Positions 19,227 to 50,614 of a stretch of 64,000 nucleotides of DNA are shown here, piece after piece. The notes under the pieces were generated by a model. That model searched no databases. It saw nothing but the letters and a program-made list of their open reading frames with translations, and had not been told where the DNA came from. A program made the position numbers and the translations under genes. The stretch is from Owenia fusiformis. Taxonomy: Eukaryota > Annelida > Polychaeta > Sabellida > Oweniidae. Where the stretch lies: contig CAIIXF020000006.1 in assembly GCA_903813345.2 (NCBI GenBank), positions 29,519,936 through 29,583,935 of the forward strand, written 5' to 3'. Every line of letters starts with the position of its first letter. The stretch's first letter is position 1.

Positions 19227-19395
19227 CACTGGTACTCATTTAGTTACGCTGACGATACGTCAGCGTAACAAGATGGAAGAACTTCCGGGCTTCGTTTTCG
19301 GTAAGATATTTATATTTATCGATTCTACACCACTTATGAGTCAAGTTGTTTACAACATATGACGTATCGTCAGCGTAACTAGGTGAGTACCAGTG
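19227..19395. mobile_element. MITE, CACTGGTACTCA ends, 5-bp target duplication
   Basis: A 169-bp palindromic element. CACTGGTACTCA and TTACGCTGACGATACGTC are answered by GACGTATCGTCAGCGTAA and GAGTACCAGTG. ATTAT precedes and follows it (19222-19226, 19396-19400). No ORF. Confidence 0.85.
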
Positions 19396-19426
19396 ATTAT
19401 CCTCCTCCATAGATTTTACCTTTATT

Positions 19427-19651
19427 CACAGGCTGGTATCGAAAGATTTTCCCGCTGTGACGGAGCATATTATTTTTCATAAAAACACTAGGAAAACCAC
19501 ACAATTTATTTTGTAACTCATATGTTTCGTTATATCAAAGAAAATTACTTAGTAAGTATGAGTAAACTTTAAATTGTGAAGTATTCTTAGTGTTTTTATG
19601 AAAAATAGAATGCTCCGTCACAGCGGACAAATCTTTCGATACCAGCCTGTG
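19427..19651. mobile_element. MITE, CACAGGCTGGTATCG ends, 5-bp target duplication
   Basis: A 225-bp palindromic element. CACAGGCTGGTATCGAAAGA and CCGCTGTGACGGAGCAT are answered by ATGCTCCGTCACAGCGG and TCTTTCGATACCAGCCTGTG. TTATT lies on both sides. It sits 31 bp from the previous MITE. Confidence 0.85.
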
Positions 19652-20247
19652 TTATTGAGGATGGGGAGAGAAGCAACACAAAGACTTGGCCATAGCAATT
19701 TCAATTTGCTAATCATTACATTTCAAACTAGCTGTATGCTTCAAAAGGAACTAACATAAGGCTATGGTCCTTCACGATAAAGACTTATATTAAGCAAAGT
19801 ACCTTCATCAATTATGGAAAACAGTAAAATGATATTGTGCTACCGATACACCATACTGATTTATTCTCTAACAAACTATATACCCAAAGCACACTTTATT
19901 TAACTGAACTATATTTTTGCAATTAGATTTGTAGTTTAAATTAGTGTAGCGTAGTTTTGTATATTTTGTATCTTGTAAACTGTATTGATTGAAAATCATA
20001 AGCTATCTAAAACACTGTGTAAAAGTAAACAGGCGACATACATGTATAACATCATGTCTGCCGCTGATGTAATAAGAATTAATAAACTACTTAATAAACT
20101 AGACTTCAATATTCTTATATAATGTATTAAACTTTATCGTTTGTGACCTTGTTGTTTTATAATTATGTAAATAGTGTTGATAAGGAATACTGTTTTGAAG
20201 AGTCTTGAGAAAACTCATGTCAAAAACCAATATTGCATTATAACTAC

Positions 20248-21404
20248 CACTGGTGATCCGCTCGATTACGCTGGTTACCGAAACGGTTCGTTTTGGTAAC
20301 AAAATGTCGGAACGTCGAAGGTACGATTTTTCTTTTTTCCTTATTTTAAGCGTTGTAGGCAGAATCCCCACGACGTTTTTTCTCGCAAACGTATATCAGT
20401 ATCATATGTTTTAGAAAATGTACATGTTTGCGAAAAATAGCTCAGAGAGGAACAGAATCGTCGATTTAATTCCTCACTTAAAGGAACATTCCTGGCCAAA
20501 CCTTTTCTATCCTGACGTGATAGTTATAATCAAATATATACTTTCCATATTTAGCAAAACATGGGGAAATGTTTTAATATAGTCAATATTGATAATTTAA
20601 AAATGTAGTGCACATTTCCAGTTAGCTGCCATCTTTTAAGATTTTACTCAGGAAGTGATGTCATCGACTCTCAACTTTCATGACCTTGCATATAACAGTA
20701 TAGGAAAATAGCACAATATCACTTCTAGACGAGTGATCCTTACTTTATGCGCAAAAATATGTTCAGAGCTTGTCAGCTTAGAATAAAAGAAGATACTTTC
20801 AGAAGGATTAAATCATAAGACAAAATTGAAAAAGAATATTCAGCTGGTTTTGTAATTCTTAATAGCTCCTTGTAGTGTTATATGCAAAGTTGAGAGTCGA
20901 TGACATCACTTCCTGAGTGAAATATTAAAAGATGGCAGCCTACTGGAATTCGGCACTACATTTTCAAGTGATCAATATTGACCATGTCAAAACATTTTTC
21001 CATGTTTTGCTAAATATGGAAAGTATATATATGGTTATAGCTACCATATTAGGAGAGAAATGGTCTGGCCAGGAATATTCCTTTAAGTTAAATAAACGGT
21101 TTGGGTTAAAAGTGCAGATCTTAACTATTTTTTCGAAAAACCGTTTATGTAACTTAAGTGAGGAATTAAATCGAAGATTCTGTCGTATTCTGAACTATTT
21201 GTTTGCAAATATGTACATTTTCTTAAACATATGATACTGATACACGTTTGTGTTAAAAATGTCGTAAGAATTCTGCCTACAACGTGTGAAATAAGGAAAA
21301 AAGAAAAATCGTACCGTTTATGTAACTTAAGTGAGGAATTAAACCGACGATTATACCAAAACGAACCGTTTCGGTAACCAGCGTAATCGAGTGGATCACC
21401 AGTG
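20248..21404. mobile_element. MITE, CACTGGTGATCC ends, carrying a nested insertion
   Basis: The outer ends CACTGGTGATCCGCTCGATT and AATCGAGTGGATCACCAGTG are inverted, with the inner motif GGTAACAAAATGTCGGAACG. ACTAC flanks both ends. The length is inflated by the 601-bp TTAA-flanked element at 20482-21082. Relatives are at 34143-34367 and 49704-50232. Confidence 0.85.
20482..21082. mobile_element. TTAA-flanked 601-bp fold-back element (piggyBac-like MITE)
   Basis: The ends AGGAACATTCCTGGCC and GGCCAGGAATATTCCT are inverted and flanked by TTAA at 20478-20481 and 21083-21086. The arms extend inward about 200 bp (GATGGCAGC, GTGATGTCATCGACTCTCAA). The related MITE at 49704 shows the uninterrupted site, CTCATTTAAGTTACATAAAC. 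TTAA duplication is the hallmark of piggyBac-type transposition. Confidence 0.8.
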
Positions 21405-23611
21405 ACTACACTACTTCCAAAGGATTACTCCACAAAGGGCGCTGTTAAAAAGGTGGACAAAAATCTAATTTAATTTGCACTGATTTATCAGTGCAATCAC
21501 CATCGAAAATGTTTAGGCTTTATGTTTTATCTTGTGTGTATATATTTTTCCTTAAATTATCTAAATGCATGTTTACAAATGGGATTTTATTAAACATGTT
21601 AAAGATATTATGTCAAAATACAGAGTGGTCCAAAAAAGGTGAACCTTTGTAACAAGCTATATCTAAGTTATTACTTATTATGCATTAATGGGCTGATATT
21701 CTCACATGTTTTAGAAGAAGGTCTAAAGTATTGTGGGTAACATAACGGTCACTTAGTCCTCTAAAGTATTTGAAAATATTAGCCCAGAATGCAAGTAATA
21801 TCTGAAATTTAACTTGTTACAAGCACAGGGGCTTGTCTCGAGGCGTCGGGCAAGCCCTCCGATGAGTGTGTACTGCTTATTAAGAGAAAAAGGGTGGTCG
21901 ATTTTGATGCTACCTGAAATTTGTAGAAAATGATTGTTAGATATATCCAGTAAAAATATATGAAAAATAAATTCAGCAATGACATTAATTTAGTTATGAT
22001 AACATCACTTACAAGTATTTATTACAGGTCGTCGAGACCATTGTTGCTTGATTTATAGCAAAAACGTTGATTTGTGCCTGTTGATGGCCTTGCGCCTTTT
22101 TTAATAGATCTCATACCTTAGATGCGTATCGTTTCAGAAAAAATCCCAGAAAACCTAACATATTCTACCATACCGTGCGCCTATCCATTTAGCAATTCAA
22201 TAGTAAACTTTTTCTTGAAAAAATAAATCTTCCAGATTTGTTTAATTTCCTAGCAGAAATTGCCTGCTCCCCCCCCCCCTCCGTCCCATATTCACGATCA
22301 CCGGGCGCGTAAGTGTGTAAGGAAGTGATTAAAATGCAAAACACGGCAATTTTCACCCTCAAATAGTTCAGAAGACAACATAATCGTCGATTTAATTCGA
22401 TATATATCACCCGCTCACCTCAGATATCAATTACATGTCATTTACCTATAACACTACTAAGTACTAAGTATTATAACCAATAAAAATAGAACCATGAGAT
22501 AGAAGAAAAGAACTTTAAAATGCTTTTTTTTATTTGAAGCTTCTTGCTGAATTTTGAAGGATGCATCAACTTTTGTAAAATTCATTACAAATATTTTTTG
22601 GCTTGTTTACGCCACCCCCCCCCCCTGACTGAAAGCTGGTGTATTGTAAAGTGTATATAGACTCGATGCTCTCTTGGATTCAGTCACATGTACTGCCATT
22701 CATCCATGGGCAGATCCCAGATAAAATTCTCCCTGCGGGGTATGTCTGCTGCGTTCTTTGGGTATCCAATTAGTTTTGAACTTACTCATCGTTTAATGTT
22801 ATTGAATTGAATCATGTGCAAATAAAACAATTGGGATAATATATTATCGGTTCCCTAATCCCTACCCCTTCTAATAGAGAATGTACGGTGTACATGGTTG
22901 GATAGAAACGGACACATTACGTCATCGATCAACATCTAGGCTTTAATGATGAAACTTCGAACAGGTGGGAAGTATTGGAGTATTCACAGGTGTTCTTTTA
23001 TGTCCTCACGGTAAAGCCTAACATCAATACTTCTATCGGGGATTGATCATATTTAATACTTAACATTCATATTCCACCAACATCAAGTCTCAAAGTGTTA
23101 CCTTAATGATCACTGTATTACTTTCATTGCGTAGCTCCCTAGAGAAATACAGAATTTCCAATCCCCAATATTCAATTGATTTTCGATCGAACTTTATTCT
23201 TGGAGATCGGCAGGGTAAATAAATGAATACGTAAATTAGGAGAATATATTGACTGGAAACCAACTGGATATATTTACATTATACTTTGATGAGATTATTG
23301 GCTAAGGCCTACCTGGACTTATTCTGGTTATGAATTAATTTATATTATTCAGGTTAGAAAATTTATTTTTGTTTTACTTATGACTTAAATTAGGAAAACA
23401 TAATCTCTGAGAAAAAGCAGCAATATTTGAATCATAATTATGTCTCGGATCATCACTTATATATTCCGAAGAAATAAATGAATATTAAAATAAACATGGA
23501 TATTAAAACATAGAAACTATTTTAAATGTTACTATAGGAAATAAAAATACGATACAAAAGTGACATTTATTATTACGGATATATCGAAACGGTCAGAAGT
23601 GATCAAACGCC
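21405..23611. other. 2.2 kb without a recognisable gene, upstream of the channel gene
   Basis: It contains a fragment of the CACTGGTGATCC MITE interior (AGTTCAGAAGACAACATAAT near 22365), a piece of the GGGTACC fold-back family (AAAATGCTTTTTTTTATTTG near 22517 and the C run at 22610), and otherwise AT-rich DNA. The channel promoter probably lies at its right end, but I see no clear TATA box or initiator. Confidence 0.6.
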
Positions 23612-26600
23612 ATGGCAGACAGAAGTCGAGCGTCGATGGACTCTACGAGCTCAGAGGGAGCGGCCAGTATCAGCAGTCGGGGGAGCCGCTCCCATAGTCT
23701 CGCATTCACCACGCGTAACTCCCTCGCCCCCAAAATGTCCATGGCCCCGAGTAATTTCAGTAAAAGCGAGAACAAAGTCATCATAAACGTTGGCGGTATC
23801 AGATACGAAACGTTTAAAACAACTCTGAAAAACATCCCAGATACCAGGCTGTCATGGCTGACTGATTCTTCGGCCGGTAGCAATGATTACGATCCGGTGT
23901 CGAAAGAATATTTTTTCGATCGCCATCCAGGTATTTTTAATATGATCATGAACTATTACCGTACAGGGAAGCTACACGCGCCAACTGATGTATGTGGCCC
24001 ATTGTTTGAAGAGGAATTGTCATTCTGGGGAATTGACGAGAAGCAAATCGAACCATGTTGTTGGATGACTTACAGGTAACATTTACATAAACTTTATACG
24101 TCCACAAGGTGCGATAAATTATACTTTGCATGCAATTTTGATTCAAAGTACTATACATGACATAGCCGTAGGGACCGGGGGTTCGATGCGTTCGGACGAA
24201 CCCCCGGTCGGGATTTCTCCCAAAAAAATATTTGTGGAAAAATTCATTGCAATAACCAGAAACATATATTCAATTTATATGACCAGTAGGAAAAAATAGT
24301 AAAGGAAGAGGTTTGAGTATTGGCAAATATCCCTATGGTCATAATGAATCATTCTTAGGTGTAACATGAAGAATAGAATGCTATAATACTTTGGAAAATA
24401 TTAAAGTGCTGGGGCACACATAAGCTGAGATAGGGATCATTTCATGATTCTCGTCATTAATGATAAAATCAGCGGAACTGTGATAGAAAATAAAATGTTT
24501 TCAAAGTTTTTTATTTTCAATTCAAAGAAAGCACAACAAATAAGTTTTTCAGCATTATTTGTTCTTTATTTGTTGCAAGGCATTGCAATTTAAGAGAGAT
24601 GTTTAATGTTAGAGCCTACAGAGCACAGTGGATATTTTGTTATTTCAATTTTTTTTTTTAAATTTCAGCCTATGTTTCATTCCATTAATACAATACTATT
24701 TGTCATCTGTCACTTCTATCGTCAGTACCAATTGAGAGTATTCGTGCAGCCATTACGACTTTTATTGTGCGCCATGATTAAATAAGTATTACATTCTTCA
24801 AAAATATTTGCTTTTGAATATACTAGTATTCAGAAACTAACTGTAAGTTCATGAGGTCATTATGAACTCCTCTATTACAAAATGAAATGGCAGATAAAAT
24901 TATTTTGATTTGGATTCTTTTCAAAAATCATCTAAAAGTGTGGGAATAGCATGCCAGAATTTGACATAATGTATCTTTGAATGATGAATTGGGAATGACG
25001 ATTTTTCAATGGTAGCTCGTTAAAAAATATGTTCCTTAGAGATATGTATATGTAATTTGCCCTTTACAAAAGTTGTCTCAATGTATGCTAACCCTTGATT
25101 TGGATTTCATTGAACAATTAAACAATTGTTATATAAAATGTATGATTTTGCTACCAGAATTCAATATCTTTCAGTAAAAGATTCACCAAAAACTATTTCA
25201 ATATAGAAAATCAAATTGTTGCCAAACTTTTGGAGGGGTGTAAATTGTATGTACAAAAAAACTTTTATGTGAGGTACACCGATGAAGGGGGAGATTTGTG
25301 GATACATAAAAAATCGAACCCCTGGTCACCAATTGCTGACTACGCCACTGCATGAGTCCATTAAATGCGATTCAAATATGCCAATAGAAGCTGTCCCAGC
25401 CAATCAACTTAGAGCATTTCAGTGCATTAATTCAAAGTATATGGTCAACTGAGCAGAAACATTATTATACAGTGCATTATGGTTCCATAATGAATTTAGC
25501 AACACATTATTGGTAAAAAATGACGTGGCGATTACATACACTCATTGTCTTCAATTACCAATATAACAAGGAATGATACGGGATTATCTATTCTTAAATA
25601 GATATAGAACAAAAATGATGCTACTTAGCCTATCCGAACTAAGAGATGAAATACCTCAAAATACCTTTAATCTGCGCTCCCTTGGATCATCAAATCTAAA
25701 CCAAAATACCATGATATCACATCATATTTTATCATAAATAGCATATGGGGGGGGGGGCAATAATTGTCTAAGTACTTTACTCTCTCATGAGCTATCCATT
25801 TTTGAATAACCAAAGCACAAATAGAGCGAGTCCAATTGCTAAATATACTCTATGTTTTGTATTAGATGTCAAATGAACTTGAAATACGATATTCTAATTT
25901 ACAGAACCCATAGAGACGCCGAAGAGACGCTGGCGGAGTTTGAACAGGATATGGAAGAAGAGGACGACGACGAAGACGAAGACATTGCGGCGAGATTTGG
26001 TTAGTGCAATGACTTCTTTATTAATTTTACCAAATATATTCAAAAGAATTAGTGTACCAAGCATGAACAAAGGTCAACATTAGACACACATCTTTAGCTC
26101 GTTACAGCTCCAATGGAAGAGTACTGGGACGGAAATCCAGGGATCCGGGTATCTTGCCCGATGAGGTATTTTTGATTTTCTATTTACAGGCAAATGGGTA
26201 TGGAAACGTCATGTGTATTTCTATGTCCCAATTTGCCTTCTTGTGCGTAGGTCCTAATTTTAGTGATTTTATGTGCATTTGTATGTCCCCTTTCTAACTT
26301 CAGGAATCGAGGAAGTGATAGAAGAGGACCTGACATGGTGGCAGCGGAACAAATCTAAACTTTGGAACCTCCTAGATGACCCAGGGTATTCCAAAGCCGC
26401 GCAGGTCATCGCCTTTATCTCCATGTTCTCTGTCATCTTTTCCATCATTTTGTTCGTTTGCGAGACGCATTTATTGTTCCGGGTCCCCAGTAATGAGACG
26501 TTCCATGCGGAAAACAATATAACATGGGACAGAAACTGGAATAACACAGAGAAACGGTTGTATACGAAAGCCCACCCTGTACTGGACTATCTAGATTACT

Positions 26601-27418
26601 ATGTCTGTACAGTTTACTTCACACTTGAGTTGATCATAAGAATAATAAGCTGTCCCGACAAAAAGGTATTCTTCAAGAGCGTCACAACGTGGGTGGATAT
26701 CATTTCCATTGTCCCCGTCTATATAAACCTCATCATAGTGACTGTAGATTCCACTCTAACCGAGACGCATCCTGCAGTGATTGCCTTAAAGGTATTAAGA
26801 ATCGTTCGTATTCTACGGATAATGAAACTGACAAAGCATATAAGCGGATTGGTGATTCTGGTACACACAATCAGGGCCAGTTTACAAGAACTGCTTCTTC
26901 TCATATTGTTCATCTGCTTTGGAATGTTAACATTCGCCTGCTTGATTTATTATCTCGAGCAGATCGACGAAGATCCTCAAAACTCGTTCACGAGTATTCC
27001 TATAGGTTTCTGGTGGGCAATCGTTACCATGACAACCCTAGGTTACGGCGACAAGTACCCGCGCTCCGTCTATGGCTACATGTTGGGAAGTATCTGTTCC
27101 ATCTGTGGTGTGCTCGTCATCGCGCTACCCGTTCCCGTCATTGTCAATAACTTTGCGTTGTACTACTCCCACGCCCAAGCAAGGCTTAAACTGCCCAAAA
27201 AGCGGAAGAAATATTTAGTGGGCAACGATCTAAAGATGGAGGTGGCACCAGTTGATGATGACATGGACTTAGATAAAACCGATAAGGACGACGATTCAGT
27301 GCTGTCTATTGAGCCGCCCAAGAAAATGTCAGACCTACTACGGAAGAACAGCAATGGCAGTCAAAACAGTGCAGATAGTGGTATAGCAAAATCAGGTTCG
27401 ATACATGAAGAATTTTAG
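23612..27418 (+). CDS. Shaw/Kv3-type voltage-gated potassium channel, 3 exons
   Basis: Pore-forming subunit of a plasma-membrane voltage-gated K+ channel (tetramer). Exons 23612-24075, 25905-25999 and 26304-27418 join in phase into 557 codons. The start has a strong context (CGCCATGG). Residues ~54-155 form the T1 domain, with [10 protein letters not shown] and a complete HX5CX20CC zinc motif typical of non-Shaker Kv channels. Exon 2 encodes an acidic linker. Exon 3 has S1-S6: S4 reads [18 protein letters not shown], the pore [15 protein letters not shown], and S6 has the PVPV bend. [17 protein letters not shown] after S6 is the Kv3/Shaw signature. Two oddities are TLGYGD instead of TVGYGD and Lys at the first S4 charge. 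The tail after S6 is rich in Asp, Lys and Ser. An alternative tail may lie at 34556-35742. Confidence 0.93.
25160..25245. repeat. Fragment of the 17753-18630 fold-back element
   Basis: TCTTTCAGTAAAAGATTCA and AATATAGAAAATCAAATTG match the middle of the element in the SDR intron (18038-18090). GTTGCCAAACTTTTGGAGGG matches its right tip. The two pieces are joined directly, so this is a deleted copy. It lies in channel intron 1. Confidence 0.65.
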
Positions 27419-27540
27419 TATAATCCTGCGATCTGGTAAATCTATGCTCAATGAATTAGTAGATTTGTAACGACATATGTGAATAGAAATTAGATGAGTA
27501 AATATGTCTGGGTGAATCAATAAGAACAGATTTTACAGGA

Positions 27541-28447
27541 TAACAGTCAATGTGCCAGGAAGAGAGTCAATGTGTCAGGATGAGAGTTAAAGTGTCACGA
27601 TGAGAATCAATGTGTAGAAATTATAGTCGGTGTGTCTGGGTAAGAGTCATTGTGTCTAGATGAGAGTCAGTGTGTCAAAATGACAGTCAATGTGTCTGAG
27701 TGAGCGTTAATGTGTCTGGGTGAGTCTATCAATCTGTTGATGCGAAAGTCAATGCGTTAAAGTGACAGTCAAAATGTCAGCTTTATAATCAAAGAAGAGA
27801 GTGGATGAGTCAGGATTAGAGTCAATATGAGAGTCAATGTATAAGGGATGAGAGGCAATGTGTTAGGATGAGAGTCAATGTATAAGGATGAGAATCAATG
27901 TATAAGGGGTAAGAGTCAATGTATAAGGACGAGAGTCAATGTATAAGGATGAGAATCAATGTATAAGGGGTGAGAGTCAATGTATAAGGACGAGAGTCAA
28001 TATATAAGGATGAGAGTCAATGTAGAAGGATGAGAGTCAATGTATAAGGACGACAGTCAATGTATGAGGGATGGCAGTCAATGTTTAAGGATGAGAGGCA
28101 ATGTATAAGGGACGAGAGGCAATGTATAAGGGACGAGAGTCAATGTATAAGGGCCAATGTATAAGGGATGAGAGTCAATGTATAAGGATGGGAGTGAATG
28201 TATAAGGATAAGAGTCAATGTTTAAGGATGCAAGGAAATGTGTCAGGATGAGAGGCAATGTATAAAGATGAAAGGCAGTGTGTCAGGATAAGAGTCAATG
28301 TATAAGGGATGAGAGTCAATGTATAAGGGTCAATCTAAGGGATGAGAGTCAATGTATAAGGATAAGAGTCAATGTTTAAGGATGCAAGGAAATGTGTAAG
28401 GATGAGAGTCAATGTATAAGGATGGGAGTCAATGTATAAGGATGAGA
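27541..28447. repeat. ~20-bp minisatellite after the channel stop codon
   Basis: About 45 diverged copies of GTCAATGTATAAGGATGAGA. The first third uses GTGTCAGGATGAGA variants and the rest GTATAAGG variants, so two sub-families expanded in turn. There are no spacers, so it is not a CRISPR array. It starts 123 bp after the TAG of the channel gene. Confidence 0.9.
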
Positions 28448-30049
28448 GTATTCTGTACAATATCAAGTTCATGTCTTTTTATTTCTCTCTCAAACAGTTT
28501 AAAACAGAATTTGAGTTAACACTACCATAACAGCATTCTCCTCGCAGGTGTTGTCAAATCAATACCAGGGAGGAAATACTAATAGACGAGTAGGGATTTG
28601 CAAAAAATAAAATAAAAAAGGATCGACTGACCCTGTTGGGTTTCTTGGTATTTTTGGAAAGCTGTGCATCACCACAACGTCTTCTACTTAATAAGAAGTT
28701 CTGAAAATGGTCCCGTTGCCATGGAAACGGACGCTGAATAAAATACCCGCTGTTAACAGTATTTGAATTACCAATAACATGTTTTGCTATATAACTATTC
28801 CATTTCTTATCCGTTTTACATAATCTTGGTACCAAATGAAAGCATGTTGAGTGCCCTTTCAGATAAAGTATAATTTATGCAAATCAGCTCATTTGCATAT
28901 CTTCTGTGACGTCATAATTGTGATTTTTCCTAATATTTTGAGCAAGTTATTAAAATACATGTTATAAATACCCCTTTGAATTAAATAAGTGTAGTAAAGT
29001 TGAATATATTCATAAAATACAAATGTAGGAGAAACAGGCTTTATTTTGATATATATAACATATCTCAATCCGTTTAAGCGATATAGCCTACGTCCTTTTA
29101 ATTAGTACATAACTGGAAAAATAACAGCAAAAGTAGACCTATTTTATGGTACAACTTGTATTTTACAAAATATGAACTAGACTTATGTAAATTATGGGGG
29201 GTTGAGACGGTAAACGCTTATATTAGCAGGTAAATCTCAGACCATACTGGGTATCTTTAGAAAGCTAAGTCTCTACTATATCTTCCACACAATGAGAAGT
29301 TCTGAAAATTGCGCCGTTGCCATGGAAACGGACGCCGATTAAAATACCTGCTATTAATAGTATTAATATCACCAATAACATGTTTTATTTTATAACTTCT
29401 CTATTTCTTATCCATTTTAAATAATCTTGGTACCAAATGAAGCCATGTCGAATGCCTTTTCAGAAAAATTATAATTCATGCAAATTAGTTCATTTGCATA
29501 TCTTTTGTGACGTCATAATTGCAATTTTTCCTCATATTTTTTAGCAAGTTATTAAAATACATGGGATAAATAACCCCTTTAAATTATATAATTGAAGTAA
29601 AATTGAATATCTTCATTGAACACAAATGTAGCCTAGACAGACGTTATTGAGATATATAGATCAAATTTCAATCAGTCTGGGAGATATAGCCTCCGTCTTT
29701 TTAATTAGTACATAACTGGTAAAATACAGCAAAAATAGACCTATTTATGGTATTTTACAAAATATAAACCAGTCTCATATAAATTATGGGTGCTGAGATG
29801 GAAAACGCTGATATTAACAGGTAAACCCCAGACCTATTGGGTCTCTTGGTATCTTTAGAAAGCTAAGCATCTTTACTCAATCTTCCACATAATGAGACAT
29901 TCTGTAATTGGTCCCATTGCTATAGAAACGGACTAATAAAAACAAATAAAAATTATACACTAGGTATTGGCAATATCGTGATCATGAACGAAAATGTTTG
30001 TCTCATAACTTTCCTATTTATTATCCATTTTGACTAATATTGGAATCAA

Positions 30050-31145
30050 ATGAAAGTTCGTTATTTCAGTTACATAATAACATGCATACTGTCACCACGA
30101 CAGCCAAGGGCTTCAAATATGTTGTGCCTACATGGCTCATACATGGGGCATCTTAATATAAAATGTTCAATTGTTTCAGTTTCACAAAGGTTACACAATA
30201 TACAGGGTGTCAAAAAACAACGGCACCCCCCTCTACAGCAAAAAGTCCTGAATATTTCATATCATGTCATACATCATTTGAAAGATAATTTAATTCTGGA
30301 GTTACTCCTCAAATTTTCATTTATTTAAACTTTATATTAAAAAAGCTACATTGTTTTTAAGTTTGCTACTTCGGTACTTTGTTTGCTGCTCTGTTACTGG
30401 TTAAAGGTCAAATCTTCAGAAAGTGGAATATGAAAGAATTAGCCCAGATTTCAACTGCACTGAACATATGGGTTCAGTTCTGAAAAACAGGGTATAGGAA
30501 CTGATGGACGAAGAGCCTCTTGAAAAAAGAGACAATGAGGATGTATTTCTGAAGAATTTGAGGAAAGTGCTTAGAGGATTATGCAATGCTACACATTTAT
30601 CTGAATTTCTATTGAAATCATATCCGTCCAGATAAGCTGCTGTTTGAGCAGCAACTGGTGGTCATACCAACTACTAAGAATCAGCTGTAAATCTGTGAAA
30701 TTATATGACATAAAGCTGAAATTTCTCAGGTAACTCCAGAATTAAATTGTCTTTAAAATGAGATATGACACACCATGTAACATTTAGCACTTTTTGCTGT
30801 AGAAGGGGGTGCCGTTGTTTTTTGACACCCTGTACATCGTTTTGAACCATTGAAGTTGTTCGTATTTAATACATGGGCGTTACATACCAATTGCATCATA
30901 GTTTTACACTGGCTTTGACATTTGGGAAATTTCTGACAAATCACCCACCATATGCAAGGTTTTAAGTCTGTGAAATAGTCACGTAGGTATAACAGTTTGC
31001 CATAACATGAGCATTGCAAGAAAAATTGCCTGACCTCGACGGATCTTAGAGCATTGACAATTTGCAGTCTCCATGACCGCTTCGACGGAAGATATCCAGA
31101 GTCCAGCGCATTTTTAACCAGATTTTCAATTCCTAGCATTTTGGT
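30050..31145 (-). pseudogene. LINE reverse-transcriptase C-terminus relic, split by a MITE
   Basis: On the minus strand, 30195-30070 reads CNLCETETIEHFILRCPMY, the Cys/His cluster found after the reverse transcriptase of non-LTR retrotransposons. Upstream, 31139-30834 gives a frame with QFFLQCSCYGKLLYLRDYF and further Cys residues that runs into the inserted element. It is an inactive fragment in the loop of the 28582-33209 element. Confidence 0.55.
30203..30832. mobile_element. 630-bp TA-flanked element with Tc1/mariner-like ends
   Basis: CAGGGTGTCAAAAAACAACG at 30203 is answered by CGTTGTTTTTTGACACCCTG ending at 30832. TA flanks both ends (30201-30202 and 30833-30834). The inverted arms run about 100 bp. 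The target is the LINE relic. The interior shows no recognisable transposase. Confidence 0.8.
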
Positions 31146-34142
31146 CTTAAGAAAAATGCGCCGGATAGGAGAGAAAATATCGACTTGGTTGCCATTGTAG
31201 TACCCCCTGTATATTTTATCAGGGGGGTATAAGAAATGCTCTGTAGAGAGTTGCCCAATTTGTGTAAATTTGGAAATATTTGAGCAATTGTGTAAAACAA
31301 TGTCATATCTTGTGAAAAGTGTTCAAATTAGACAGGTTAATTTTTCGAACATGAGTGTTCACTATTCGAATTTGGAGGTGGTCAGATTTCAGGATATGCC
31401 TTCGATTGAGGCAGACTAATACTTTTCCTAAAATACCACAAAATATATGTATAGTTTGGTTTATATCACTCAGGAATGAATAATTGAACTATTTAAAGAG
31501 GTACATTCTATATTTCCTATCCTGGTGGAAATCTACTCTATTTATCAAAATGATGACGTGTTGAGTTACATTCATCATATCAATATGGAGATATGACAGG
31601 TTTACTACACTTGTTTAATAGAAGAGGATTTATGACATATATAATAAGTTGATAAAAATGGTATAAAAATATCAAATATGACGTCACAAAGGCTATGCAA
31701 ATGAGCTAATTTGCATAAAATTGTAATTTACCTGGTAGGGCCTACAATATGCTTTCATTTGGTACCAAAATTATTTAAAACGGATAAGAAATGAAAGAGT
31801 TATACAAAGAGGTTATTTGTGATTTAAATAGTGTTATTAGCAGGTATTTTAATTAGTGTATGTTTCCATGGCAACGGGACCATTTTCAGAACGTCTCATT
31901 ATGTAGAAGATGTAGTCGAGATGCTTAGCTGTCAAAATATATCATCAGGGTCTGGGGTCTACCTGCTAATATCAGTGTTTTCCATATCAGGCCCACATAT
32001 TTTATTTAAGGCTGGCTCATATTTGGTAAAATACCATAAAATAGGTCTTCATTTTGCTGTTTATTTTCCAGCTATGTTCTAATTAAAAAAGATGTAGACC
32101 ATATCATCTAGACCGTTTGAACTATGTTCTATATATCAAAATAAAGCCTGTCTGTCCCATATGTATCTTCTATGAAAATATTACATGCTTACTGCGCTTA
32201 TTTATTTCAAGTCGATATTTATAATATTATATTTTAATAACTTGCTCAAAATATTAGGAAAATGGCAATTATGACGTCACAAAAGATATGCAGATGAGCT
32301 TATTTGCATAAATTATACTTTATCTGAAAGGGCATTCAACATGCTTTCATTTGGTACCACGATTATTTAAAATGGATAAGAAATGGAAAAGTTATAAAAT
32401 AAAACATGTTATTAGTGATTTAAGTACTGTTATTTTAATCAGCGTCCATTTCCATGGCAACGGGACCATTTTCAGATTTTAGCATTATGTGGAATTTGTA
32501 GTAGAGATGCTTAGCTTTCTAAAGATACCTAGAGACCCAGTAGGGTCTGGGAGTAACCTGCTAATATCAGTGTTTTCCATCTCAAGCCCAGATAATTTAT
32601 ATAAGGCTGGCTCATATTTTGTAATGTACCATAAAATAGGTCTACGTTTAGCTGTATATTTTCCAGCTATGGACTAATTAAAAAGGATGTAGGCTTTATC
32701 ATCTAGACTGATTGAGCTATGTTCTATATATCAAAATAAAGCCTGTCTGTCCTACATTTATATTCTCTGAAGATATTACACTTTTTACTACGCTTATTTA
32801 ATTCAAGGTGGGTATATATAACATGTATTTTAAAATTTGCTCAAAATATTAGGAAAATTGCAATTATGGCGTCACAAAAGATATGCAAATGAGATAATTT
32901 GCATAAATTATACTTTATTCGAAAGGGCACTCAACATGCTTTCATTTGGTACCAACATTATTTAAAACGAATAAGAAATGGAAAAGTTATAAAATAAAAC
33001 ATGTTATTGGTGATTTAAATACTGTTAATAGTAGGTATTTTAATCAGCGTCCGTTTCCATGGCAACGGGACCATTTTCAGAACTTCTCATTATTTGGAAT
33101 ATGCAGTAGATATGTTCAGCTTTCCAAAAATACCAAGAAACCGAACAGGGTCAGTCGATCCTTTTATTTCTTTAAATAAGCACTTTTTGGCAAATCCCTA
33201 CTCGTCTATAAGGTATAGCATATATCCATCTCTTCCACAACAAACAAATAAAGGACATGATCAATACAGGCAGTCAATATACACAAGTAATCAAACAAAT
33301 AAGGCTGAATATATCTTACAGAATTGCATTGATCCAAGGGCAAAGCCAGGCCTCACTAAAATTTTGCAGAAAAATATTTATTCCCAATTTTTTTCAATCG
33401 AAATTGTGAAGTTCAGTGGATTGATTATCCTATTTGGCTTTACTTTCATGATCCTCACTTCAGAACAGTTAGATATACTCATGATACTGACTGTGCTAAT
33501 TATTCAAGGAAAATTGCACTTTTGTTTGTGATTAGGACAAAACAAGTATCTATTATACTGTTATAGTTTTTTTTATTATTATTAAAGAGAGAATCAGATA
33601 TAGCGAGCAGGCTAAACAAAAAATTGTTTCAATTTTAAAATATTTTTGGCTCATGTCATTCCTTGTCATGTCTATTTTCTAAAAATCACAAAAGTGCATA
33701 CTTTATTCAAGGAAAACTAAAGATTTTTACAATAATGAATTATTTTTCTATAAGAATGGTTACCATTCTTATTATTTGGGAGAATTTAAACATTTTTCAC
33801 CCATTTTTGCACCTTGAATCATTAATAACTTCACCAATTTATAACATATTGTGAATCTTTTGGGAGATATTGTTTTAGATATTGTAAGGAATAGATTGGT
33901 AGGTCAATTATACAAGCTGCTTGTAATTTTGTCACCCCCTATAGATCTGATTCTGCCTTTAATAACCATAAATATGTATCCAGTGATATTTTTCTTATTT
34001 TATTCATTTTTGTATATGACATAAGAAAAGACAGAATATTCTGAGAAAAAGATAAGGGTTTGATATTTGAATGTGAAAAAATAAAGGTATGTGCAAGTAT
34101 TTAAAGCAGCTAACATTATCTCAATCTGAAAGTTGTCAAGCA

Positions 34143-34367
34143 CACTGGTGATCCACTCGATTACGCTGGTTACCAAAACGGTTCGTTTTGGTAACAAAAT
34201 GTCGGAACATCGAAGGTGCGATTTTTCTCTTTTCCTTATTTTACACCTTATAGGCAGAATTCCCACGACATTTTTGAACACAAACGTGTATCAGTATCAT
34301 ATGTTTAAGAAATTGTACATTTTAACGGTCGTTTTGGTAATCAGCGTAATCGAGTGGATCACCAGTG
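34143..34367. mobile_element. MITE, CACTGGTGATCC family, short copy
   Basis: CACTGGTGATCCACTCGATT and AATCGAGTGGATCACCAGTG are inverted, with AACGGTTCGTTTTGGTAACA inside. The flanks AAGCA and ATGCA match in four of five positions, consistent with a slightly mutated 5-bp duplication. Confidence 0.8.
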
Positions 34368-36162: not shown

Positions 36163-36560
36163 TGCATTGCCATGACGATAAGACACAATTAGTATATTTC
36201 TCTTGTTCCTACAACACCTTACAGTAGTCCCTACTTTTCTCGAAAAGTTGAATACAAAATTAGGAAAATGTTATTTTAAAATTGAACTGAAATATATTTT
36301 TTTTTAAATCATTTCATATGTAAATATCCATGTACTTATATAGCCTATTTTGATAATTGTGATCATGAATAAATTACCCCCAAAAATTATTCTCATGCCA
36401 ATCTACCTTAAAATCAAATCATACTATTACATCAATAGTACATGAGACAGATCAAAACTTCATTACTAAAATAAAGTTGGACATGAAATTATTGTGCAGT
36501 ATTGATTCAAAGTTTAAAGTAGTGTAATGAATGATCAGTCGGGTCTCTATCCATGAAAGC

Positions 36561-36810: not shown

Positions 36811-36931
36811 TGAACACTGGAATAACATTGTTTCAATCTTCATTACAATGTTTTTCTTATGTTTTAGGTGGACATTACCTCCTCTATAAGCTATCCTCAA
36901 TGCCCAAAAAATTGATATTTTGATCCAGTTC

Positions 36932-36937
36932 TTTATT
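36932..36937 (-). terminator. Poly(A) signal for NCAPH2
   Basis: AATAAA on the minus strand within GATGATAATAAAGAACTG, 235 bp after the NCAPH2 stop codon. Confidence 0.5.
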
Positions 36938-37171
36938 ATCATCTTCTGCTTTGTCACGTTTTAAGAAGAACATGAACTACTAAGAAATTCATGTATATCA
37001 AGTCTGTCAAACATTTAGTCTGTTTTTAATAAAATAAGCCTCAATATATTTCAAAGGATATTAGCATCTTCCCAGGAACCGAGTACCAGAATATGCAAGC
37101 ATTCAAATTCTCAATAGCATGATCTGTTCATTACCAGTTTCGACTGAATCATCCTGATGAAATAAAAGTAT

Positions 37172-43100: not shown

Positions 43101-46100
43101 ATTTAGAATAAATAATTTCAATAAAAAAAGAAAATTGCCTGTTGCTAGTGATGCCCATGTAGTACAAAATCTTTTTTATCTCAATGGGCATCATAAGAAA
43201 TTATCATCTCCCAATAATCTCTTAGATATATGATTACCAAATAGGCTAAAATGGGCGCTTAAAGAGTCTCAAGTTAGCATGATGTGTGATCTGCTGTACA
43301 TTCATTCAATGTAGTGAGGAATTAACTATAACGCTTTGGAGCCATGATTTTTTAAAAAGTGATTATATTTCAATTAGGGCACCGAACCCTCTGTGTGTGT
43401 TTTACTCCATTGTCTTATTATTTTTAAAGGGAAGGGAAAGTTTTGTCCCTTAAACTTGATAATAAGTTAGAATAAAGATACATCTTTCAATCCAACTTCA
43501 TTTTATTGTTCTATCATTATCCCCTTAATTGTTATTGAGCCCCAGGTTTTGCATTGGAACTGGACCACGGAGCTGCCATTTCAACCGTAAAGTGGTTCTT
43601 TACGACATTGTTATGACGTCATTGATGCCAGATTGATGCCTTGGCATTCCCAAAGTTTTGTGGCGCCATTTTTGAATCAAAAAATAAATGCCGAGTTGTT
43701 GCCATTCCAAAACCAAATAAATCATTTTAAAGGAACTAAAATAATACGTATATACCACCCATAATAAAGAACGATTTCAATAGAATATTAACGACGGCAT
43801 TTTCGGAATTGCTTTTTACCTATCTAGACATGGAATGTAGGTTACATTTATTCGTTATTTACACTTGAAATAATCTGGGATTCGTGACTTTTTAACTTTC
43901 ATTAGGTCTAGCGCTAAATGCGAACACAGAATGCTTATTCTATCAGGCAAATGCAAATTATTTTAATAAAACATAATAAAATTAATTCAACCAACCCATC
44001 TTGAACTTCCAAGAATGCAATCCCGGTGATGATTTAATTTGCTAGTCTCATTACAAAAATACGTGTTCGTACTTTAATATTCATTGCATTTATGTTTATC
44101 TTTAACACAAGTATTTGCAGAAAATTTTAAAATTGAATTTTAGAAACGTATTCAATTACTATCATGGATTCTTAGCCTCACGTCACATTTTTACGGGGAC
44201 CGTACGTCTATCATTTCTGCAGTAAGTAAAATTTCTACGGTTGCCTTAGTATTTCTGCAGTCAGATAATTTAGCAGTCACATTTGCTAAGATAGCGGCGT
44301 ATTTTGATTATGAGTAAAAACAACGATTCCCGTACGGCTGTAGGGCGGCCCTACGATGTGCGTAGTTTTTCTTGAAGGCATCCACAAAGGGTTCTATGGT
44401 TCGGAAAGGTCAATTGTACCCTATGAAATCCAAGCGCAGCTGCAAGTCGACCGTGAACCCGACGCACGGCCGCCGTGGGACCTACGGTTTGGCTGCTGCT
44501 TGTTGATATCTACGGTGACCACAGGAAAGAAAAAGTTATAACTCCGACTCTACGCCCTATAAAACTTGATATGCCGTGTACGTAGACCGCAAGGTGACCT
44601 TAAGGCGACTGTAGTTTTCCTATGTTTGCCGCAAAAATTTACTGATTTCAGGGAAATACGGTCGACGTGCGGTCGCATTGAGCAAATGTGACTAAAGCTT
44701 TTAAAGTTCCACTTAGTTTAGAGGAAACGATATGGAAAAACAAAAGGTTGTATACCATTAAATTGAAAATCATTATTTGGAAAAAACTTTAGAACTGTAC
44801 TTACCACGGATGTTATATAATTAAATTAGAGCTCGAAATCAGGAATAAATATATATTAAAATAAATGAAATATCTAATTGGCCCCATCGTCTCCCCGCAT
44901 CACTGAATGTTAAACATTACGTATTATTCTTTGAAATATGACAGTGGCATGTCCTTGTAAATCTATTGCCAAACTTAATATTTAGGAGATTGACATTCAC
45001 ATAAGTATCATTTAGACGACGTCGATTTTTCGTTTTTGTTTGCGTTTTTCATCAGAATTTAAATGATTAAACACTGTAAGGAGTTACTGTTTCATTGGAT
45101 TTTACTACTTTTCGTTTTATTTCTTTCATTCTCCAATATCCACCTATTCATATTTGAATAGAATACTACAGATTGAAGAAATCTACCATTATGATTAGGT
45201 AAGAAAGCAATTGCAGCAGTTTGCTTATTTGCCGACATATACCTTATCAATATATAAAATAATTCTAGTGGATATTCTCAAGTGGAATATAATGCGATGA
45301 CTTTTCAGTCAAAACCAATTAAATTCCGAATCGCCGATATCTCATAAGTTTAGTGATTTTTCTACCTAGCCTATACTATATCACATTGGAGAAAATAAAT
45401 ACAAACATTTGAAAAAAGACATTGCAACAATTCAATTTCTATGAAGAATATACTGAAACAACCTCTCCAAATATATAATGATATGGACATGAACATGCAG
45501 CAACAATGTTAAGCGGACAGAAATAGTTATAAAATAGCAGTGAAATGTGTTCTATTTCTGCGATCCGAGTATGACGTGCGACACTTCCCAGGCATCAATT
45601 TTAAGGCATCAATGACGTCATTGATACATAACAATGGTGGCATCCGCAGCAATCCAGATATGGGTACTTTGAACTTGAATTATATATTAGTTCAAACACG
45701 ATATGTCCAATGAGGGAGCTGAAGTGATAGATGATGGTTATAAGTAGTCAGCGTATAAATTAGAACATGAAACTTCGCATTCCCTTTAAATGGATACTTA
45801 CATTCTCTTTCTATGAACTGGTCAATGGGTTCTAACTCTTTCATTTTCTGTGGCGATTTCTTTCGTTTCCGCTTTGTTGTGTCTGTTTCCAGGGAGGGTG
45901 GAATCTTGAATGGTCTCCCTGGTAACAAAGATAATATAACAAGATAAGATAAGATCTTGATAAGATAACAAGATAATATCAGCATTTGCATTTTGTAATC
46001 AATGAATTTGATTTACACTTGATCTTTAAAAATGTTGATTTGGAAATGGCCCACAAGTCCTGAACAAAGTGATATTTTAGGAAATTAACATTTTTGAAAT

Positions 46101-49100
46101 AATATTTAGATAACTTTTAGAGAAAGAGAGTGTCATTCCATTTACCTTTTTTAAATGGTTTTTCTTCTATAGTAACTTGATGTGGGTCCAAGATTTGCCA
46201 TGGGTTCACATATGGTTTGACTGGGACTACTTTCTTCTTCTCTTGTCTCTGTACTACCTCCTCTACAGGGGCTATGGGGTTCTCATCTTCTAAATCAGGG
46301 GGACCCAGATCCATACCGCCATTATCCTCATCCACTGAAAGGCCAATCATAAAATGAAATGTAACACATTTTGCTGAATAAATGTAAAAATACTTCACAA
46401 GAGATATAAATATATATCTCAACAATATGGGAAAATACTGAAACATTATCATGTATCAATTGTTTTGAGGTGGGTTTAATGTCTTCAAGAATTTTTTTAG
46501 GGCCTGTTATAATGAGAAACTGCAAGGCCTGCGTTGGCTCTAAATCAATACTTACTGCTTATATCTTGTGGTATGCCCAATCCTTCATCCTCCATGGCTT
46601 CCTCTGCTTGACGAACCTCTACAAACACCAAATTTTGCATAATGATTCATTCAAACAAGTTGTAAACCTGAACTCAACACGTCTCAGATTCATTTTTTCT
46701 TTTTATTGCGAGATAATTACATTTTACAATTTAAAAACCATTTCAAATACATTTATATGAGCTAAAATAATCACAGTAAGGAAGTCTGGATGTTCCCATA
46801 CTAAGTCTTTTTCATTCTTTTTTATGAGAAAATGTAAGGAATCTCTGCATACATTTATTTGTTTCAGCTATTAAGACTGACGTTTATAAGAGCCGTATTT
46901 GAAATAACTTATAATGCATTTAAAACTTGTCAACATATTTCAATTGAAAATGCACTGAAATGAAATCCTCAAAATTGTCTGAATTATGGAAAAAAAGAAA
47001 TGGAATTTTTTTACATTTGAGGGGTCATGAATCTAATGCTAAGTCAAAATTTATCTGTATACCTGGTGGAATGGGGGGTTTGGTAAAAGGTGTTGATGTA
47101 GGTAAACGATTGAAGGAGTCATCCAGGAACGACAGATGTGACATGTCCAGCAGCATCGTACCAGTAGGATGGATATTACATGTATTCATTTTGAAGTCAT
47201 TACGACTACCTAGGATTTCACCTGTCCGACTGAAAATACATTTTCTACTTGTGATGCGATGTTCAACATAAAAGAAGTTAACTGTTTACTTCAAAGTTTT
47301 ACAAGAAAATTAATTTGGATCTGACTAAGCTGTGTAACTATGCAACGTGATTTGTAAACAGAGGACAAATTAATATGAATTTGTCAAGATTAGCTAAGCA
47401 TGGAGGCTAAAATGCTCGTGTAATGTTCATGTCTGGTTAGTATCTTGGTTTTGCATGCTCTCATAAAATTATTTCATAATCATGAGTATGGAAATGAAGC
47501 TGTCTATGTTACTTTCTTACCTAAGCAATGGATTTGCTCCCTTTTCCCCCTCTTCTAAGGGAACTAAAGCCATAGGAGTTCTAGGCACCACATGCACTGC
47601 ATGAGCATCATGCTCCCCAATGTCATTTTTCATATCAATGTTATTATGTTCCTTAATGTCATCAAGTGTCAGGAACTCCTCATCTTCATCATCCTTTGTG
47701 TGAGGAGCATCAGCATCTTTGCCGTCAGCATCCACTGATGGCCCTTGTTTCTGAGTCCTGGAATAAAAAGGCCACGCAATCTTTAGATCGTTACACCAGG
47801 GGAAAAGGCAAAGTTCAATGAATATATTAGTTAATTGAGGTTAGACTCGGGTATTACAGTATCTGTCAAATGATCAAAAAGTGAAGAATCACAATTTTGC
47901 TTTTTTTAATATGAGTACCCAAAACATATTTAATATTTATGATAATTTTCCCTGAATTAAGTTTGACTTAAAGTTATATGGAAAATATTTAGGTCAATCT
48001 AGCAGAAAATGGATTCTTCAGCACTTACTTTTTATTCGCTAAGAGATCAAGAGCTTGGTAGACAAGACTATACAGGTACTCAACCTAAAAACAGAAAAAA
48101 TGGTTTGATTTGGGCAGCCCTTTCACTTTCACCTAAGCAAAGGTAGTGAAACTCCAAAAGAGCAGGTGAAAACTAAAAACTAAAATGAAAATATACGAAT
48201 ATAAAATGACCAAACAGAGCTCTACAGGAGAGGTAAGGAAACACTCATAATTCAAAATGAAAAAATAAAGTGAACTTATACAAGGGTCGATCCAGATATT
48301 CTGATAAAAATGCTCTCCTTTTTTGATTTTTGGGAGTTATAACATCAAACTTGCACAAAATTAGGATAATTTAATTGCTCTTAAAATATATAAGTTTAGT
48401 CAACATACGGGCACTAATGCGTTGCTAGGGTAAAAAATTGGTAACCATGCAAACGGGACCTGGGACAAGTAGCTTTTCTGCCTCTTCATATTTTGTCTTA
48501 ACATACTTTTATATCCATTATGACCCATTTTAGATTCAAATATTCTTCAATTAGCATTTTAGCAGGTGCACCTACAATCAATTAAGTGTTTTGTGACATC
48601 ACAACAGACAATTGTCCATTCTGAGCAAATAGAAGCTGGCTCCAAATTCAAATCACTTGAGCAAGTTTGCAGGTATTGAGAATCCATCTGAGAAAATGAA
48701 TAAACATTGCCCTGTCAGAGATCTGACTGACTTCATCCTCCACCACGATAATGCCCCATCTCATCAAAGTGAATGTGTGCAAACTGCTATTTATATCAGA
48801 GAGAGAGCATGGGTATGGAGCTGCTCGGTCATCCCCCATATTCCCCTGATTTAGCGCCATTGGATTTTGCGATTTTTGGGAAACTGAAGAGTGACCTCAA
48901 AGGCAGGCATTTTCATGATGTCAATGTGATGAAACAGGCAGTTATGGGTTCCCTGCACACCAACTTCCCTGACTGCAATGATGTATATACTCGCTGGGTT
49001 GATAGACATAGACGATGTGTGGCTGCACAGGGACATTATTTTGAGCGCATGCGTAAATAAAGGACATAATAGTTGATTAAATCAGTCTGTGAGACTCTTG

Positions 49101-50614
49101 ATTTTGTAGCTAAACCTTTATTCTAGTTTTATTGTCCCAGGTGCCGTTACCATGGCAACGAAAAAGTTCTCCCGTGAGGAGAGTTATAAAGGAATAAAAT
49201 TTATATTTTTATATCTTTTGCCAAAATGAATTATCTTTTGTCTGTTCAAATTACAAGTAATAACTTCCAAAAATAAAGAAATGAGAGCATTTTTATCAGA
49301 ATATCTGGATCGACCCTTGTATAACTGGTTTTCAGTCCCTTTAAGACCAAACATTAACCTAATGGTTTATAAAAGAATAATTTGTCCAACTATTCCTCGT
49401 AAATATAATGTTGACCATTTCCCAAATTTTCTGTCATCATCAAGAAATATAACTTGGTGAAAGATGGAAGTCCAGTGAATTGTTTAATATTCTCAATGTA
49501 CCTTTTTACTGTAAACACATGCAGAACCTTGAATCACAAGTGCAGCCTCTGCAAAGTTTAATGTTGTCAAACCATCATCAAAAGTAATTCTAATTGTGTC
49601 TATCTGGAAACAACAAAATAATGAAAATATGATATATTTAATTTAGTGACATCTTTTTAAGACATATTCCACAATAATGACTAATCATCACATACAACTT
49701 TAGCACTGGTGATCCACTCGTTTACGCCGAATGAACCGTTTTGGTAACAAAATGTCGGAACATCTGAAAGGTACGATTTTTCTCGTTTCCTTATTTTACA
49801 CGTTGTAGGCAGAATTCCCACAACATTTTTTAACACAAACGTGTATCAGTATCATAAGTTTAAGAAAGTGTACATATTTGCGAACAAATAGTTCAGAAGA
49901 CAACAGAATCGTCGATTTACTTCCTCATTTAAGTTACATAAACGGTTTGGGTTAAAAGTGCAGATCTTAACTGTTTTTCGAAAAACCGTTTCTGTAACTT
50001 AAGTGAGGAAGTAAATCGACGATTCTCTTGTCCTCTGAGCTATTTTTTAGCAAACATGTACATTTTCTAAAACATATGATACTGATGCACGTTGTGAGAA
50101 AAAACATCGTGGGGATTCTGCCTACAACGCGTGAAATAAGGAAAAAAGAAAAATCGTGTCTTCGACGTTCCGACATTTTGTTACCAAAACGGTTCGTTTT
50201 GGTAACCAGCGTAATCCAGTGGATCACCAGTGTTTAGGCATTATAAGCAATGATTACCCAAATAAAATCCTCATTTTAGTGTTTAATCGTGGAAATTCCT
50301 TTTGGCAAAAGAACTCTCAACGCTATTGCATAGTTGGTCCTAAAAGTGTTTGTTTTTATAAATTAAATCTAAAATTGAAATAAATTAGACAATTTAAATC
50401 TACAATAGACAGGAGAAGAGCTGTTCATATATTTTCATTTCTATATACTATTAGTTTATATAAATTCTTACATCCATGTCAGGCATACATAACTTACCTC
50501 ACCAAGATATGAGGTCAAATCTCCAGCAATGTCTATATCCCAGTTCTTTGTCAGGTCTCTGATTGGCTGGAGCAGGTGGCCGAAGCGCTGCTCCAAATCA
50601 TTGCCCTGAGACAT
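37172..50614 (-). CDS. NCAPH2: Condensin-2 complex subunit H2 (kleisin), complete, 15 exons
   Basis: Kleisin of the nuclear condensin II complex, bridging SMC2/SMC4 and the HEAT subunits during chromosome compaction. Exons (minus): 50614-50498, 49603-49502, 48084-48029, 47757-47521, 47229-47063, 46618-46556, 46334-46146, 45918-45802, 42868-42741, 42169-42085, 41833-41735, 40036-39966, 39705-39604, 37762-37613, 37309-37172. All joins are GT-AG and in phase, totalling 606 residues (human 605). Conserved blocks: [13 protein letters not shown] at the N-terminus, [47 protein letters not shown] with KPFKKGRP in the middle, YEDLVRHHV, and PYDIHTYG in the C-terminal winged-helix region. Acidic stretches lie between domains. 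It is divergent from LMF2, with starts 2.6 kb apart. Confidence 0.96.
37930..39310. repeat. 605-bp tandem duplication with GGCCGCC motifs
   Basis: The block TTTTGATGACAAGAAT to TTCAAAATGGCCGCCACG is repeated with a 604-605-bp period (38027/38631, 38486/39091), plus partial copies. ATTCAAAATGGCCGCCA and AAAAATTTCAAGTTGAAC recur inside each unit. It fills NCAPH2 intron 13 and ends in CCCGCCCGCCCGCCC at about 39281. Confidence 0.8.
40468..40634. mobile_element. 167-bp hairpin MITE in an NCAPH2 intron
   Basis: AATATAGACCTCAGAGCAGG, TCGAATACACACC and GGGCTAGGCACAAA are answered by TTTGTGCCTAGCCC, GGTGTATTCGA and CGGTCTATATT around a ~40-bp loop. It abuts the LINE fragment at 40640. Confidence 0.75.
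40640..41711 (+). pseudogene. 5'-truncated LINE, C-terminal part, two frameshifts
   Basis: Fragment of the ORF2 of a non-LTR retrotransposon: the region after the reverse transcriptase fingers, with [18 protein letters not shown] in frame one. It continues in the next frame with [20 protein letters not shown] and [11 protein letters not shown], then [14 protein letters not shown]. After another shift it gives [13 protein letters not shown]. The Cys/His pattern and ENEKHFLLEC are typical of this class. It ends in TAAATAAATAAATAAA, a microsatellite-like tail as in CR1/L2-type LINEs. It lies antisense in NCAPH2 intron 11, its tail 24 bp from the exon 11 donor. It is not functional. Confidence 0.85.
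42406..42513. mobile_element. Second copy of the TGTCACCACC MITE
   Basis: TGTCACCACC and GGTGGTGACA ends, with CGTTACAGATGCCAAACTTT inside, as in the sirtuin-intron copy at 4001-4099. It lies in NCAPH2 intron 9. Confidence 0.6.
42869..45801. other. 2.9-kb NCAPH2 intron 8 with a CpG-rich core
   Basis: No nested gene is recognised. Inverted-like stretches near 43606-43660 (ATTGTTATGACGTCATTGAT, TTGATGCC) and 45590-45640 (the complement) may be the ends of a ~2-kb element. The middle (about 44190-44680) is unusually CpG-rich, with CTACGG, GTACGG and TACGTAG motifs repeated in both orientations. The ORF at 44356-44541 lies in this part and resembles nothing. Confidence 0.5.
48281..49319 (+). mobile_element. 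Mariner-type DNA transposon relic, 1.04 kb
   Basis: The ends CAAGGGTCGATCCAGATATT and AATATCTGGATCGACCCTTG are perfectly inverted and flanked by TA (48279-48280, 49320-49321). Plus-strand transposase remains are split over two frames: HHDNAPSH with the second catalytic Asp, then [15 protein letters not shown] with the third. It ends with HYFERMRK and a stop at 49060. The N-terminal DNA-binding part and the first catalytic Asp are missing, and the element is shorter than the ~1.3 kb of intact mariners. It lies in NCAPH2 intron 2. Confidence 0.9.
49704..50232. mobile_element. MITE, CACTGGTGATCC family, 529-bp copy
   Basis: CACTGGTGATCCACTCG and TGGATCACCAGTG ends, with long inner inverted arms (GGTAACAAAATGTCGGAACA, AACAGAATCGTCGATTTACT). 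The TTTAG duplication is perfect on both sides. It carries the uninterrupted TTTAAGTTACATAAAC site that is broken in the 20248 copy. It lies in NCAPH2 intron 1. Confidence 0.85.

Follow-up and report, generated by a model that had tools for sequence, protein, structure and literature searches.

Inverted ends that begin with CAC are common to EnSpm, Chapaev and Transib transposons, and the Transib elements hopper, transib2 and Hztransib begin in this way. Duplications of the target are 2-4 bp long in EnSpm, Mirage and Chapaev, and the heptamer of the Transib and recombination signal sequence (RSS) type has the consensus CACWRTG. CAC ends together with 5-bp target-site duplications (TSDs) form a combination known from the relatives of RAG, the enzyme behind antibody genes. 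This combination is common to Transib, ProtoRAG and the RAG-like (RAGL) elements of protostomes, whose end consensus is given as CACTWMCAAACKTYKBB, and RAGL derivatives that consist of terminal inverted repeats (TIRs) only are described from Pinctada imbricata and several deuterostomes (PMC7204232). In Drosophila, hopper and transib2 of the Transib group have the target motif CCANTGG and a 5-bp duplication (PMC3276498), and the target sites of ProtoRAG, Transib and RAG favour GC (PMC8289069). In other groups, EnSpm has CAC ends with 3-bp duplications, and the hAT5 group of the hAT superfamily makes 5-bp duplications (PMC12730594). Here, we describe families of miniature inverted-repeat transposable elements (MITEs) in the annelid Owenia fusiformis that have CAC ends and, predominantly, 5-bp duplications. 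They were recognised in a stretch of 64,000 nucleotides (assembly GCA_903813345.2, contig CAIIXF020000006.1, positions 29,519,936 to 29,583,935 of the forward strand), which we call the window and which lies on the contig numbered C6 here, and they were followed through the 498-Mb assembly.

A previous, sequence-only reading of the window had reported five copies with CAC tips, four of them flanked by perfect 5-bp repeats (ATTAT, TTATT, ACTAC and TTTAG) and the fifth, at 34143-34367, by a repeat that matches at four of five positions. We found each of the five, with these flanks, in the raw sequence, where the fifth reads AAGCA/ATGCA (Table 1). They represent three families: A (the element starting at 19227), B (19427) and C (20248, 34143 and 49704). 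For the copy at 20248-21404, the ends and the ACTAC repeats were as reported, but its length of 1157 bp is not that of one element: it results from a 601-bp palindromic element, with inverted ends of its own (AGGAAYATTCCTGGCCA), that is inserted at a TTAA within it. The 552 bp that remain without this nested element are 87-88% identical to the three intact copies compared. This copy is a family-C element plus a separate insertion, not a longer member of the family. The element at 49704-50232 has the same ends and is 97.2% identical to a consensus of 20 copies plus itself.

We scanned the window for CAC-starting inverted ends that match at 12 or more of 14 positions, lie 40-3000 bp apart and are flanked by an exact 5-bp duplication. 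The scan returned precisely four elements, the four with perfect repeats, and none in any of 20 dinucleotide shuffles. The same scan for duplications of 3, 6, 7 or 8 bp found no pair with CAC ends; for 4 bp it found two, one at 51716-53461 and one inside the element that starts at 34143, and for 2 bp five, three of which are the same CAC elements. Dropping the CAC requirement, in a version of the scan run without a shuffle control, gave seven pairs with a 5-bp duplication, namely the four and three others. The end CACTGGTGATCC occurs six times in the window when up to one mismatch is allowed, against 0.12 expected occurrences.

Genome-wide, the 27-bp end of family C was found 2,477 times (up to two mismatches), and a reversed control pattern was not found at all. 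Rough first-look counts, with 40 candidates scored for each family, gave 1,708 candidates for family B and 294 for family A. The end of family C reads CACTGGTGATCCACTCGATTACGCTGG and that of family A CACTGGTACTCA(CC)TAGTTACGCTG; CACTGGT and TTACGCTG are common to both. In the family-B end, CACAGGCTGGTATCGAAAG, no likeness to A or C was seen beyond CAC-W-GG. When further families laid out like C were sought by pattern, a fourth, older family emerged, E (CACTGGTACTCCACTCGATTACGC), with 10 ends and degenerate palindromic bodies. The motif CACWGG is common to families A, B, C and E, partly by construction, as copies were sought by these ends, and the CAC start is the consensus of the four, from which individual copies deviate (for example CATTGG in locus L077).

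Full-length elements measure 538 bp in family A, 828 bp in B and 537 bp in C, and are palindromic over almost their entire length. One full-length copy of each was 93% (A), 88% (B) and 88% (C) self-complementary, compared with 61-62% for shuffled sequences; the copies in the window, which are mostly deletion derivatives, reach 69-85%. Family C is homogeneous in length (534-539 bp among 20 copies), and these 20, being best BLAST hits and so biased towards young copies, are 97.8-99.6% identical to their own consensus. Internally deleted size classes are frequent, with lengths of 68-517 bp in C and 225-1103 bp in B. Reading frames in eight family-B elements, judged by length and not compared against a family library, do not exceed 118 amino acids (aa), except for one of 194 aa in L083 that sits in a stretch (434-1015) unshared with the other B copies. 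Just inside the ends of families A (AACAAGATGGAAGAAC...) and C (AACAAAATGTCGGAAC...) lies a similar ATG region, followed in each case by GT. Possibly, what is left here is the first exon of a parent element, with the GT as its putative splice donor. Nine places in the assembly match a pattern built on this conserved region. The elements are thus short, non-coding, high-copy and internally homogeneous, with TIRs and TSDs, as MITEs are. The families are real and numerous, family C is young, and in kind all are ordinary palindromic MITEs.

In nine of the ten family-A loci L067-L076, which were chosen mainly for having only one listed arm, no second end was recognised over 1.3 kb. We considered these single-ended copies as possible large elements and rejected them as such: their sequences diverge beyond about 260-450 bp, with an extra short shared stretch in L073 near 611-678. 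They look like palindromes that were truncated or rearranged near the centre. A possible further CACTGG family has the ends CACTGGCGGATY..., with both ends in L043 (47-204) and a single end in L091 (ending at 821); no duplication was recognised around the L043 element.

To measure the TSDs across families, we drew on loci L009-L118 and the window, which yielded 50 elements with both ends recognised; those with an unrecognised second end (5 of 18 C-pattern, 9 of 12 A, 2 of 8 B and 8 of 10 E loci) were left out. An exact 5-bp duplication flanks 35 of the 50, whereas three have a 6-bp, one a 7-bp and one a 4-bp duplication, and 10 have no exact repeat; at least four of five positions match in 41. 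When flanks were randomly re-paired, an exact 5-bp match arose in 143 of 10,000 cases. By family, the exact cases are 29 of 38 in C (including L109, which has an E-type end), 4 of 7 in B, 2 of 4 in A and 0 of 1 in E; five A-like loci added later contributed no exact 5-bp case. No other duplication length predominates, a possibility that the sequence-only reading had raised, and its description of the elements as non-autonomous MITEs that are tipped with CAC and duplicate 5 bp is supported genome-wide.

Among the 35 exact cases, C immediately precedes the duplication in 20, and G immediately follows it in 21. Together these outer half-sites amount to 41 of 70 (binomial p ~1e-14, against a background of 17.3% set in the script), and at the other flank positions within six bases C and G are not similarly enriched, the excesses there being of A or T and weaker. 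These data show that the elements insert preferably at C-N5-G sites.

Taking the ends, size classes, palindromy, copy number, predominant 5-bp duplication and target preference as observed, we infer with near certainty that the MITEs are excised and are mobilised in trans. In the mechanism that we propose, a transposase supplied in trans would bind the CACWGG ends of these non-coding palindromes, recognising in families A and C the shared inner block as well. It would excise the hairpin-shaped element by cut-and-paste and, through a cut staggered by 5 bp, insert it elsewhere, with a preference for C-N5-G. The transposase would lie on the Transib/RAG1 side of the CMCT (CACTA-Mirage-Chapaev-Transib) group, in a branch that reads CACWGG and not the canonical Transib heptamer. 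This last step is proposed because the elements combine CAC ends with 5-bp duplications and with a target of the form C-N5-G; a Transib-like partner is slightly favoured, and the statement as a whole, superfamily included, is plausible but tentative. A more specific version, in which a separate branch of the Transib/RAG1 lineage reads CACWGG, prefers C-N5-G sites, leaves 5-bp duplications rich in AT and has multiplied hairpin MITEs to high copy number, with the RSS-heptamer rule naturally relaxed beyond CAC, strikes us as unlikely.

The MITEs share with the Transib elements hopper, transib2 and Hztransib the CAC start and the 5-bp duplication. Their outer C and G are those of the Drosophila motif CCANTGG (PMC3276498). 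They are like protostome RAGL and ProtoRAG elements in beginning with CAC, in duplicating 5 bp and in the existence of TIR-only derivatives (PMC7204232, PMC8289069). They also resemble long palindromic (foldback-like) MITEs, having an inverted repeat that spans nearly the whole element, no coding sequence, high copy number and, in family C, homogeneous length.

Several observations weigh against a Transib-like partner. The ends CACTGGT and CACAGGC fit CACWR at bases 1-5 and depart from the heptamer at positions 6-7. They also differ from the protostome RAGL consensus CACTWMCAAACKTYKBB, and the duplications, which are GC-biased in RAGL and ProtoRAG elements (PMC8289069), are AT-rich here: their GC content is 24.6% (175 bases), whereas the outer flank has 31.1% and the window as a whole 34.6%. 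C and G flank the duplication together in only 10 of the 35 exact cases, and of the Transib motif C-CANTG-G only the outer C/G is present, the inner CA/TG being absent. In contrast to Transib elements, the MITEs are non-coding palindromes with no linked transposase, and we found no autonomous element with these ends in the part of the assembly that was sampled, a search that included no Transib protein query. RAGL and ProtoRAG elements carry RAG1L and RAG2L genes, whereas here the RAG1 Pfam model PF12940 gave nothing above the cut-off, and RAG2 was not searched for. Finally, the RAG1-like transposon that is best defined in this genome differs from the MITEs in its ends (CATATCGAG) and in its target (CATATG). 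The label Transib/RAG-like, which the sequence-only reading had offered as a possibility, is thus a reasonable lead and not a membership: CAC, the 5-bp duplication and C-N5-G fit it, and heptamer positions 6-7, the GC bias of the target and the best-defined RAG1-like ends do not.

In the search for a partner, 11 RAG1-like loci were checked for ends, two of them after extension upstream; none joins a RAG1-like DDE transposase to these ends, and a family A, B or C end lies beside the transposase in 0 of the 11. A perfect family-C end about 6.7 kb upstream of the RAG1-like element on contig C8 lies outside the block shared with the copy on contig C1, and so is not its end. An exclusion pattern of family-C ends with a different inner sequence had 194 matches, and 18 of the 100 that were listed were fetched. 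Twelve of these are MITEs of 68-517 bp; the other six had no second end at the first threshold (L052 was later paired) and, inspected by eye and not compared to a library, no transposase-like frame. For layout variants of family A, a pattern found eight ends, five of which were fetched. Three of the five belong to copies of a single segment, which contains an element of about 281 bp with both ends and no 5-bp duplication (ATACC/ATCGA), and two have no recognisable second end. The family-B exclusion pattern, with no mismatch allowed, had 0 matches.

PF12940 had three matches below the cut-off, all from one family. The 729-aa frame of the best-defined RAG1-like family, itself below the PF12940 cut-off, matched RAG1 PDB structures at a best E of 0.0016, in alignments covering regions that we take to hold D708, the CxxC pair and E962. 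The transposon is a 5.4-kb block defined by comparing the copies on contigs C8 and C1; its edges, CATATCGAGATTTT...AAAATCTCGATATG, recur in three copies (contigs C8, C1 and C483) with unrelated outer flanks. Its loci, all outside the window, are L029 with L087, L030 with L088, L123 and L124. The junction sequences suggest that CATATG is its target and that ATAT (or TA) is duplicated, so that neither CAC ends nor a 5-bp duplication are indicated. Because of its ends and its CATATG sites, this transposon is not the partner of the MITEs; it may be worth separate study. A second RAG1-like group (L036-L039) has DUF1280 in the two proteins tested and a zf-AD N-terminus in one; the RAG1-like gene of L039 lies between inverted ends (CTCAAATGCC) that are flanked by ATAT.

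The general rule for hAT ends is YARNG, and the ends of vertebrate hAT MITEs are CAGTGGTTCTCA. The main rival to a Transib-like partner is a transposase of the hAT5 type, from the hAT group with duplications of 5 bp and not 8 bp. The MITE ends (CACTGGTNCTCA) resemble some hAT ends except at base 3, hAT transposases are abundant in the genome (138 matches to PF05699), and the 5-bp duplication that predominates in the MITEs is also that of hAT5 (PMC12730594); the element called hAT-5 in PMC6004678 is described there as an 8-bp element. However, position 3 is C in all family consensuses, against A or G in the hAT rule (which is given for hAT ends at large and not for hAT5 in particular), and none of the 29 hAT loci examined among the 138 (9 and a further 20) has a family A, B or C end. 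The nearest stretch among these 29, a B-like one with four mismatches in L062, was rejected, as it lies inside the element and begins with CCC. By their sequence, the hAT ends defined in this genome (TAGAG, CAGAG and TAGGG) are canonical and follow YARNG, whereas the MITE ends begin with CAC. Both ends were defined in three hAT loci, where they read TAGGG or TAGAG and the duplications are 8 bp long, and two multi-copy groups had only their 3' ends defined (TAGAG and CAGAG). We regard a hAT5-type partner as possible but doubtful.

Alternatively, the partner may belong to another or an undescribed superfamily, such as a relative of EnSpm or Chapaev with an unusual 5-bp stagger. CAC occurs in EnSpm and Chapaev also, this genome has at least two groups of RAG1-like proteins, and the best-defined of these has a target unlike that of Transib, so that the CMCT-type elements of this genome are not textbook ones. 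Set against this is the clear predominance of 5 bp among the paired elements, in place of the 2-4 bp of EnSpm, Mirage and Chapaev, and we consider such a partner rather improbable. That the 5-bp repeats and the inverted ends arose by chance or from faulty alignment, which short repeats easily picked out by eye might suggest, is refuted by the 20 empty shuffles, the exact 5-bp match in 35 of 50 elements against 143 of 10,000 re-paired flanks, and the reversed-pattern control of zero.

If the partner is Transib-like, these MITEs would show which part of the heptamer system is constrained (CAC with a C/G-flanked 5-bp target) and which part is free to drift, and they would bear on the way in which RAG came by its signal sequences. 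A partner of the hAT5 type would mean that CAC with 5 bp is not diagnostic of Transib, and caution would be due in the automatic classification of MITEs. No published report of these families was found in a narrow literature search on end sequences and TSD, in which Repbase and Dfam were not compared.

Table 1. Elements of the window, with their TIRs, their ends and flanking repeats as read in the raw sequence.
Element	Position	Strand	TIR	Ends	Flanking repeats
Family A MITE, deletion derivative, 169 bp	19227..19395	.	CACTGGTACTCA	CACTGGTACTCA...TGAGTACCAGTG	ATTAT/ATTAT (19222-19226 and 19396-19400)
Family B palindromic MITE, 225 bp	19427..19651	.	CACAGGCTGGTATCGAAAG	CACAGGCTGGTATCG...CGATACCAGCCTGTG	TTATT/TTATT (19422-19426 and 19652-19656)
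Family C palindromic MITE, split by nested element	20248..21404	.	CACTGGTGATCCRCTCGATTACGCTGG	CACTGGTGATCC...GGATCACCAGTG	ACTAC/ACTAC (20243-20247 and 21405-21409)
Nested palindromic element of a different kind, 601 bp	20482..21082	.		AGGAACATTCCTGG...CCAGGAATATTCCT	TTAA/TTAA (20478-20481 and 21083-21086)
Family C deletion derivative, 225 bp	34143..34367	.		as 20248-21404	AAGCA/ATGCA (4 of 5)
Family C near full-length palindromic MITE, 529 bp	49704..50232	.		as 20248-21404	TTTAG/TTTAG (49699-49703 and 50233-50237)

The window contains further large inverted repeats that are not CAC elements. They lie at 59261-63397 (arms of 376 bp that match at 96% and of 325 bp that match at 99%), at 17752-18631 (288 bp, 89%) and at 28609-33172, where many arms match at about 77-90%.
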